41,527 nucleotides of DNA from a bacterium (GTDB taxonomy: Bacteria; Cyanobacteriota; Sericytochromatia; S15B-MN24; VGJW01): the NCBI GenBank assembly GCA_021781555.1, contig JAJXWQ010000028.1, positions 1 through 41,527 on the forward strand, written 5' to 3'. Under the pieces are notes generated by a model. It saw only the letters and a program-made list of their open reading frames with translations, was not told the DNA's origin and searched no databases. The translations under genes were made by a program, and so were the position numbers. Shown piece after piece: positions 2,857 through 41,527 of the stretch. How positions within the stretch are numbered: position 1 is the stretch's first letter; every line of letters starts with the position of its first letter.

Positions 2857-3016
2857 CCGCGCCTCCCGGTGGCCCTCGGCCGCAGGTCTGCGCAGGCGCC
2901 CCTCACGCTTGCCGCCCCCGGGGGCTCGATCTGTCGCGGCGGTGGGCCATCGTGGACGGGCGCGGCCTCGCAAGTCGGGTCTTCAGCACGGTGGTTCCCC
3001 CTGGTTCTGCTCCCAT

Positions 3017-3122
3017 AGAGTGCTCCCGGTTTGAATGGATCGAGCCCGATGAGTCAAACGGGGCCCGGTTGCGCAGCGAAGCGACCGCGCAGAGGACCCC
3101 GTTCAAACTGCAAAAGGCCTAG
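3017..3122 (-). repeat. Interspersed palindromic repeat, copy A
   Basis: Read on the minus strand, this copy starts with ctaggccttttgcag, then gaacgggg, a GC-rich apical part (TGCGC...GCGCA), ccgggccccgtttgac and tcgggctcg. The stretch 3041-3122 matches copy G at the window end (41446-41527) at about 80 of 82 positions. A further 24 bases (3017-3040) align with the 3' extension of copy E (..TTC.AACCGGG.GCAC..). The outer arms form a hairpin that in this copy is fully paired if one G-U is allowed. It lies in the gap between two divergently oriented genes, unlike most copies, which follow stop codons. Confidence 0.85.
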
Positions 3123-20236: not shown

Positions 20237-20278
20237 CTTGCAATTTGAACGGGCCCCTCGGCGCGGTCGCTGCGCTCT
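20237..20278 (+). repeat. Interspersed palindromic repeat, copy B (half)
   Basis: ttgcaatttgaacgggcccc followed by the ggcgcggtcgctgcgct apical segment. Only the 5' arm and part of the loop are present; the 3' arm (ccgggccccgtttgac) is missing. It lies 50 bp after the apt stop codon. Confidence 0.75.
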
Positions 20279-22630: not shown

Positions 22631-22726
22631 TTTGCAATTTGAACGGGTCCCTCTGCGCGGTCGCTTCGCTGCGCAACCGGGCCCCGTTTGACTCCTTCGG
22701 CCTGAACCCCGCCAGGCGAAACCGCT
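22631..22726 (+). repeat. Interspersed palindromic repeat, copy C
   Basis: A full copy: tttgcaatttgaacgggtcc, the ctctgcgcgg...gctgcgcaa apex, ccgggccccgtttgactcc, then an extension ending ccaggcgaaaccgct, which is shared with copy D. It fills the gap between the convergent rel and NYN genes and ends 1 bp short of the NYN gene's stop codon. Confidence 0.9.
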
Positions 22727-31447: not shown

Positions 31448-31548
31448 AGCGGTTTCGCCTGGAAAGGAGCGGTCCCGAGGGTTCAAACGGGGCCCGGTTG
31501 CGCCGCGCAGTCAGTGACCGCGCAGAGGGACCGTTCAAACGGCAAAGG
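31448..31548 (-). repeat. Interspersed palindromic repeat, copy D
   Basis: Read on the minus strand: tttgccgtttgaacggtccc, the tctgcgcggtc apex, ccgggccccgtttga, then an extension ending ccaggcgaaaccgct, shared with copy C. The apex differs by an extra ctgactgcg-type insertion. It lies between the pepA stop codon (9 bp away) and the pepA terminator, so it would be part of the pepA 3' UTR. Confidence 0.85.
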
Positions 31549-31556
31549 GATGGTGG

Positions 31557-34664: not shown

Positions 34665-34683
34665 ACTGTTTGCAGTTCCATAC

Positions 34684-34787
34684 CTTTTGCGGTCAGAACG
34701 GGTCCCTCCGTGCGGGCGCTATGCTGCGCAAACGGGCCCCGTTTGACTCCTTCGGCCCGATTCCTTCGAACCGGGGGCACCCTGACC
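34684..34787 (+). repeat. Interspersed palindromic repeat, copy E
   Basis: ccttttgcggtcagaacggg, then a tccctccgtgcgggcgctatg apex, gggccccgtttgactcc and a 3' extension (ttcgaaccgggggcaccctgacc). The extension aligns with that of copy A, and its last 14 bases recur inside the kinase gene at 4589-4602. It lies 20 bp after the HD-GYP stop codon in a 413-bp convergent gap. Confidence 0.8.
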
Positions 34788-34850: not shown

Positions 34851-35025
34851 GACGCCAGCCGCGCTTGTCCAAGGCGCGGTCGACGGTTTGCTGTCAGGTG
34901 CGCGTCCCTTGAGAGGACGGCTCCACCATAACACCACCACGCCGCCCCGGCCTGCGCCCGCAATCACCCGCGGACTGTGAGCCTGGCCACACCGACCGGC
35001 TGGCTGGCAGAGGCACCCGCTCGAG

Positions 35026-35055
35026 CTTGAACGGGTCCCGCTGCGCGGGCGCGGG
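35026..35055 (+). repeat. Interspersed palindromic repeat, copy F (partial)
   Basis: cttgaacgggtcccgctgcg followed by cgggcgcg. It matches only the 5' arm and part of the apex, and it lacks the 3' arm. It ends about 20 bp from the stop codon of the minus-strand gene at 35078. Confidence 0.6.
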
Positions 35056-40684: not shown

Positions 40685-40858
40685 CATGGATCCTTATCTT
40701 AAACGGATCTTACTGCCGGCTTTGGCGTCGCTTTACCGTATCCGACAGCCAACCCGCCGACAAGAGGAGTATCGCACATACCCGAGCCGCGGACCGGAAG
40801 GTTCTCCCGGCGGGTGTCAGGCGACCGGCGGAGCCGGGCATCGAACGAGGAATACGTG

Positions 40859-41449
40859 GTGGTGAGCGAGCAAAACCAAAGTCTTACCGTGCTCCTGTTG
40901 GGAGCGTTGCCCGGGGTCCGCCCTGCGGCACCGGTCGACATCCGGGGCCAGCTGCCGCCAGGAGCCCTGGCAGGACAGCCGCCCCGTGGCGCCGCGGTCC
41001 CCAGGATCCAGACGGCACCGCTGGCGCTTTCCAATGAACCCATCCAGCGTGGCGAAGCCGGCCCGCGCGTCGCCAAGCTGCACGCCGAACTCTTCGAACT
41101 GGGCTTCCTGGCCAAGCCCGGGCTGCCGCCCTACTTCGGCGTCAGCACCGACGCCGCCGTCCGCAACTTCCAGAAGGCCTGGGACCTGGTACAGGACGGC
41201 CTCGTCGGGCTCGAGACCCAGCGCTACATCGACGAAGCCCTGCGCAGCCTGCGCGCAGGAACGGGTTCCCGGGCCCTCAGCTACCTGGTCCGGCAGGGCG
41301 ATTCCTTGCTCCGCATCTCGCAGGCGCTTCTGGGAGATGCCGGCCGGTGGCGTGAGATCCTCGATTTCAACAACCTGACCGACCCCAACCGCATCGTTCC
41401 CGGCATGACGCTGCGCATCCCCCCGCGGCTCCGAGCGCGTCAGGTCTAG
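40859..41449 (+). CDS. Peptidoglycan-binding PGBD-LysM protein
   Basis: A cell-wall-associated protein of about 196 residues. After a hydrophobic and Pro-rich N-terminus comes a PGBD1 domain (GEAGPRVAKLHAELFELGFL, FGVSTDAAVRNFQKAWDLVQDGLVG). A C-terminal LysM domain follows (YLVRQGDSLLRISQALLGDAGRWREILDFNNLTDPNRIVPGMTLRIPP). Both bind peptidoglycan; no hydrolase domain is present. Three GTG codons (40856, 40859, 40862) are in frame after GAGG at 40847-40850. I chose the middle one for 8-nt spacing, while a start at 40814 would lack a ribosome-binding site. No clear signal peptide is seen. Its TAG stop lies inside repeat copy G. Confidence 0.88.
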   Translation: MVSEQNQSLTVLLLGALPGVRPAAPVDIRGQLPPGALAGQPPRGAAVPRIQTAPLALSNEPIQRGEAGPRVAKLHAELFELGFLAKPGLPPYFGVSTDAAVRNFQKAWDLVQDGLVGLETQRYIDEALRSLRAGTGSRALSYLVRQGDSLLRISQALLGDAGRWREILDFNNLTDPNRIVPGMTLRIPPRLRARQV

Positions 41450-41527
41450 GCCTTTTGCAGTTTGAACGGGTCCCTCTGCGCGGTCGCTTCGCTGCGCAAC
41501 CGGGCCCCGTTTGACTCATCGGGCTCG
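41446..41527 (+). repeat. Interspersed palindromic repeat, copy G (runs off window)
   Basis: ctaggccttttgcagtttga, the acgggtccctctgcgcggtc apex, gcgcaaccgggccccgtttg and a final tcatcgggctcg. It matches copy A at about 80 of 82 positions; the only difference is a GGGGTCC/GGGTCCC change in the 5' arm. The first four bases include the TAG stop of the PGBD-LysM gene. The element continues past the window end. Confidence 0.9.

Follow-up and report, generated by a model that had tools for sequence, protein, structure and literature searches.

The repeat at which this contig ends is most probably (at roughly 0.8, judged from sequence comparisons) a gene-less MITE that multiplied in a recent burst of one subfamily, with a DDE transposase that targets TA acting on it in trans. 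Sharp ends, TA on both sides, a symmetric target preference, empty sites in a relative, and copy number are directly observed; the DDE transposase acting in trans is inferred. The window, by which we mean the whole stretch of 41,527 bases analysed here, is all of contig C26, and its end at 41527 is therefore a contig end.

The original prediction drew attention to two repeat copies in the window, A (3041-3122) and G (41446-41527). Indeed, these lie on opposite strands and agree at 80 of 82 bases (two mismatches, 97.6%, E 1.8e-36; 83 nt at 98% in a second alignment), and the stop codon of ORF 40814-41449, which encodes PG_binding_1 and LysM domains, falls inside G. The repeat unit is longer than this 82-base match. 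Copy A is a full 102-bp element on the forward strand (3018..3119), flanked by TA at 3016..3017, in the target ATAG, and at 3120..3121. Copy G, on the reverse strand, retains 79 of 102 bp (41449..41527) before the contig end cuts it; the TA at 41447..41448 together with the terminal G of the element forms the TAG stop of the forward-strand PG_binding_1-LysM gene (40814..41449), so that the stop codon is the target. Each copy differs from the TA-to-TA consensus at one base, A at base 81 and G, in the part present, at base 82. For the suggested gene conversion, as far as these two copies are concerned, we found no evidence, each having a variant of its own. Nor does the pair stand out, since end counts put the total at about 225 copies.

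Short-read assemblies often stop at repeats, and the assembly break suspected at G was borne out, both because the contig stops where the window does and because contig starts elsewhere cluster at left ends. Among 100 listed of the 227 left-end matches (C1 to C113), 10 contigs begin no more than about 125 bases from a left end, compared with about 0.8 expected, namely C16, C23, C31, C35, C56, C69, C71, C95, C103, and C112.

To define the element, we aligned 30 loci from its own genome and 93 near-full copies found in 881 kb of that genome. The unit consists of TA, 102 bp from GAGTGCTCCC to AAAAGGCC, and TA, with sharp boundaries and unrelated flanks in most near-full copies. It is short, without coding capacity and dispersed in many copies, as MITEs are. 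The left and right termini form the inverted repeats typical of MITEs, although imperfectly: without gaps, 12 to 15 of 24 positions agree (p 0.0105 to <0.0005 by shuffling), where the "old" ends compared are composites read by eye. The weakness of these terminal repeats counts against our reading. So does the failure to find an autonomous partner in the 881 kb, which hold 12 left and 19 right ends without a core; left-right pairs of such core-less ends within 5 kb span only 164, 54, and 121 bp.

The repeat may form a conserved hairpin, its predicted fold being stable (z -2.2 and -3.7). Double changes occur in 10 of 19 stem pairs, filling 41 cells against a mean of 17.2, and none of 200 shuffles, which ignore relatedness among the 114 distinct cores, reached 41. 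In this ungapped alignment, however, 78 of the 114 cores have a mismatch at one and the same stem position, and the alifold consensus contains only two pairs. In or beside some old copies (C4:39868-40018, L118:18749-18939, and others) the core is repeated in tandem with a period of about 61 bp, which is a minisatellite within a MITE. A 54-bp TA-to-TA copy at C85:43178-43231, in tandem with a fuller one, has its left end joined to its right without a core.

Across the 3.82-Mb draft genome, the left end occurs 227 times and the right end 224 times at no more than two mismatches; reversed-pattern controls gave no match there. The 29-base core matches 402 times at no more than one mismatch, exceeding the end counts because the core is present too in older subfamilies and in fragments whose outer ends differ. 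Identity of the 93 near-full copies reaches 100% in 21 (in two of which the last bases, beyond the alignment, differ), at least 98% in 69, and at least 95% in 81. Pieces of old copies gave 209 BLAST matches in the 881 kb, about one per 4 kb, in a sample whose densities are biased, having been partly picked for containing copies. The window itself holds an older full-length copy of 81% (34679..34784, reverse strand), an older 64-bp core that has lost its outer ends (22631..22694, reverse), a diverged older copy (31474..31549, forward), and two fragments (20238..20276 and 35024..35052, both reverse). The first three are absent from the congener G001, with junctions that are not clean.

Outside its own genome the family is scarce. 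The core occurred in three of 386 genomes drawn from the phylum, namely its own, G001 (five matches), and the same-family genome G004 (two matches); G001 has four left ends and one right end, and six further relatives have none. At C204:762-947 of G004 (loci L065 and L068), the exact 29-base core sits in other palindromic arms (GGAGACGCC..GGCGTC) and is repeated at 59 and 98 bp; this contig, with sampled DNA of 49-58% G+C, may be foreign to its bin. Rfam at gathering thresholds gave no match in the window, a plasmid collection none to copy A, and IMG/VR viral contigs no exact match to a 30-base core pattern. Titles and starts of abstracts yielded no description of this repeat. It appears to form a high-copy MITE family not described before, in a lineage of which little is known. 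The HIP1 octamer GCGATCGC, whose excess is a cyanobacterial trait, occurs 323 times in the same 881 kb against 34 expected from base composition, a nine-fold excess.

Recent mobility, one of the two causes proposed for the near-identity of A and G, is upheld by the 227 left ends, the many near-identical copies, and the empty sites in G001. This congener, to which we compared two pieces of the window of 20 kb each, shares about 86% DNA identity. After the orthologous PG_binding-LysM gene, G001 reads ATCTAG and then at once other sequence, with no repeat. G is therefore not a copy held at the same locus by both relatives, as an old, static element would be; the proposed comparison of flanks was informative for G only, copy A having no clear orthologous flank in G001. 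When the joined flanks of 94 near-full copies were compared with sampled G001 DNA, nine had a spanning ortholog without the element, G being the tenth such site. A single TA stands at the insertion point in seven of the ten, G included, and five of these read CTAG; the other six are C87:85316, C4:18295, C6:16347, C46:84226, C46:77046, and C10:1981, with CTAG in four. The remaining three give no such clear TA, which tells against our reading: TG stands at C2:37536, and the sequence is ambiguous at C33:14085 and at window position 34679. A further point against it is that the copy at C139:53608 is present also in contig C406 of G001. As 906 bp there are 100% identical, against the usual 86% or so, we suspect that C406 was cross-binned, which is probable, or else reflects a very recent transfer.

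Target duplication, a further mark of MITEs, is evident from these empty sites and from the copies themselves. Of 51 copies of at least 98% that touch no other counted copy, 47 have TA on both sides. Their inferred targets are CTAG (36), TTAG (5), CTAA (4), TTAA (3), and others (3), and the bases flanking the TA are C on the left in 40 and G on the right in 42. At non-CTAG targets the element termini stay G and C; a 2-bp duplication of TA therefore fits better than one of 4 bp.

The sampled DNA is poor in CTAG, with 456 occurrences against 2,659 expected from base composition. CTAG is a rare, gene-end-enriched site in this high-GC genome. We located insertions relative to 650 genes predicted with a home-made, error-prone caller (errors occur, for instance, near 28.7-31.2 kb of the window), from DNA from which the elements had been removed, since an element left in place interrupts reading frames; the insertion sites were those of copies with at least 95% identity. 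Among 66 such sites, 47 of them at CTAG, 31 coincide exactly with the stop codon of a gene, five fall inside called genes, and 30 are intergenic. The 348 free CTAG comprise 104 at stops, 136 intergenic, and 108 inside genes, so that insertions fall inside genes less often than free CTAG sites do (5/66 vs 108/348, p 3e-5). A preference for stop codons as such was rejected, since, outside genes, stops account for 31 of 61 insertions and for a comparable share of free CTAG, 104 of 240 (p 0.32; 0.58 with the first gene set). It is through the choice of CTAG, therefore, that copies arrive at stop codons. Insertions are enriched between convergent genes (20/51 vs 39/222, p 0.0013). With the first gene set, the left end touches the stop in 19 cases and the right end in 15, every stop being TAG. 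Selection or insertion bias thus keeps most copies out of genes and towards 3' ends.

On our reading, a DDE-type transposase acting in trans would insert the element at a TA within YTAR, mostly CTAG, and duplicate the TA. CTAG would become CTA-G...C-TAG, which restores the target at each side of the element, and a TAG stop used as a target would remain a stop in either orientation, because both element termini begin with G and re-form TAG. The burst of one subfamily would have followed the split from the congener. That the element ends are adapted to re-form TAG from TA plus the terminal G, with CTAG-stop insertion harmless in both orientations and CTAG rebuilt as a landing pad where a further copy would insert in fixed orientation, we consider unlikely; if true, adapted ends would help to account for the wide spread of the element.

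Copies also occur in arrays. In the sampled DNA of this genome, 18 adjacent pairs share a TA with a 104-bp period, and all have the same orientation. Such uniformity is unexpected for free insertion into the palindromic CTAG and speaks against our reading. Five of ten pairs compared (in C152, C19, C29, C2, and C71) have no variant in common and differ at subfamily positions, which makes local tandem duplication unlikely as the sole source of arrays; the pairs in C16 and C44 do resemble local duplicates. In four of those five pairs the upstream copy is closer to the consensus, a pattern that hints that one copy was inserted into the CTAG at the left end of another already in place.

As to the transposase that moved the element, searches for the IS630, PF01609, and Y1 types identified one IS630 transposase (DDE_3), six PF01609 matches, and one IS200-like Y1 transposase. 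The six are an IS1182-like full protein and a fragment, two IS1380-like copies (L267 and L268, 85% identical over 1.4 kb), and an IS701 full protein and a fragment. At L270:1330-3130, an IS1182-like element, whose ends begin GAGACG/GAGCGT, lies in a CTAG at the end of an old repeat copy.

An IS630/Tc1-mariner enzyme, as proposed for RUP, either the resident IS630 (L062) or a lost relative, may have been the driver, an attribution that we make tentatively. It would explain the TA duplication, which the portion of PMC2170065 used here establishes for IS630/Tc1-mariner elements such as ISY100. Moreover, the one DDE_3 transposase found in the genome sits between CTAG sites, and in contigs C13 and C173 ends of IS630 directly adjoin those of the element. 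However, the ends of the resident IS630 match those of the element at only 4 to 11 of 24 positions (best shuffle p 0.014 among eight comparisons) and are thus not the shared ends expected of an IS630-type MITE.

An IS5-like enzyme of the IS427 or IS1182 type, as proposed for MITEPsy1 and BrickBuilt, is another possible, if far from assured, driver. The old right end, GACCTTTTGCA, resembles four ends of IS5-family elements or MITEs given in the consulted part of PMC4596501 (7 to 56 of 5000 shuffles, depending on the end, were as good), and CTAG/YTAA is the MITEPsy1 target according to an excerpt of PMC3189936. The resident IS1182-like element is bounded by CTAG sites and has the ends GAGACGC../GAGCGTC... 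Nevertheless, 28 end comparisons were made, and the left ends remained without a match; among resident elements, where IS630 and IS1182-like ends were compared, the IS1182-like ends do not match those of the element. Of the six PF01609-type proteins, five were scanned, L267 among them but not L268; all stayed below the IS5 cut-offs, and the match to IS1182, at 259 bits, fell just under its cut-off of 270. The duplication is 2 bp here but 4 nt in MITEPsy1, again by the excerpt of PMC3189936; instead of the 4-nt CTAG/YTAA duplication of an IS5-type MITE, a 2-bp TA fits the non-CTAG sites.

Known elements offer partial parallels, as far as the excerpted sources describe them. RUP of Streptococcus pneumoniae (PMC3049150, PMC2229807) is likewise short (107 bp), gene-less, present in about 110 copies, and inserted at TA-containing targets, but it is AT-rich and of other sequence, and its ends resemble the resident IS630-Spn1, a match without counterpart here. 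Correia/NEMIS (about 107 and 155 bp; PMC2229807) and ERIC/RU-1 (PMC2229807; 127 bp, PMC2759123) share TA at their termini and target duplication but have other sequences and ends. MITEPsy1 of Pseudomonas syringae (PMC3189936), 100 nt long with CTAG or YTAA targets, differs in its 4-nt duplication, its 18-nt repeats near those of ISPsy2, and its six copies. BrickBuilt of Porphyromonas gingivalis (PMC4596501) is a MITE with an internal tandem repeat and IS5-like ends that resemble the right end of our element; its 23-nt minisatellite, its 19 copies, and its duplications of varying length set it apart. REP/REPIN sequences with their RAYT (PMC3116915, PMC2817692) are palindromic and numerous, whereas the repeat studied here has TA at either side, and no RAYT in the genome exceeded the cut-off.

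We think it improbable that the repeats are of the REP/REPIN type, moved by a Y1 (RAYT) transposase. They are palindromic, abundant, and mostly outside genes, and a decayed 38-bp repeat piece lies about 160 bp upstream of the genome's one Y1 transposase; yet old pieces number about one per 4 kb, and because they are so common this proximity may be due to chance. With 63.2 bits, the Y1 protein clears the cut-off of 55 for the IS200 model, but its score of 29.4 is far from the 80 required by the RAYT model. REP/REPIN elements are not known to duplicate their target, and symmetric CTAG targets with TA on both sides, such as we see with a single TA at the empty sites, are unexpected of single-strand insertion. 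Least plausible of all are old static repeats kept alike by gene conversion, which would account for near-identity across many loci but not for seven congener empty sites with one TA, nor for different subfamily variants persisting side by side.

In conclusion, the repeat most probably represents a new MITE family that targets TA and underwent a recent burst. It is of an ordinary kind, but its copy number and the neutrality of its insertion towards stop codons are striking. The family explains an assembly break, and its copies are usable as strain markers and are possible sites of rearrangement. Furthermore, it illustrates on the scale of a genome how a transposon can spread and yet mostly spare genes when its target motif is concentrated at stop codons.
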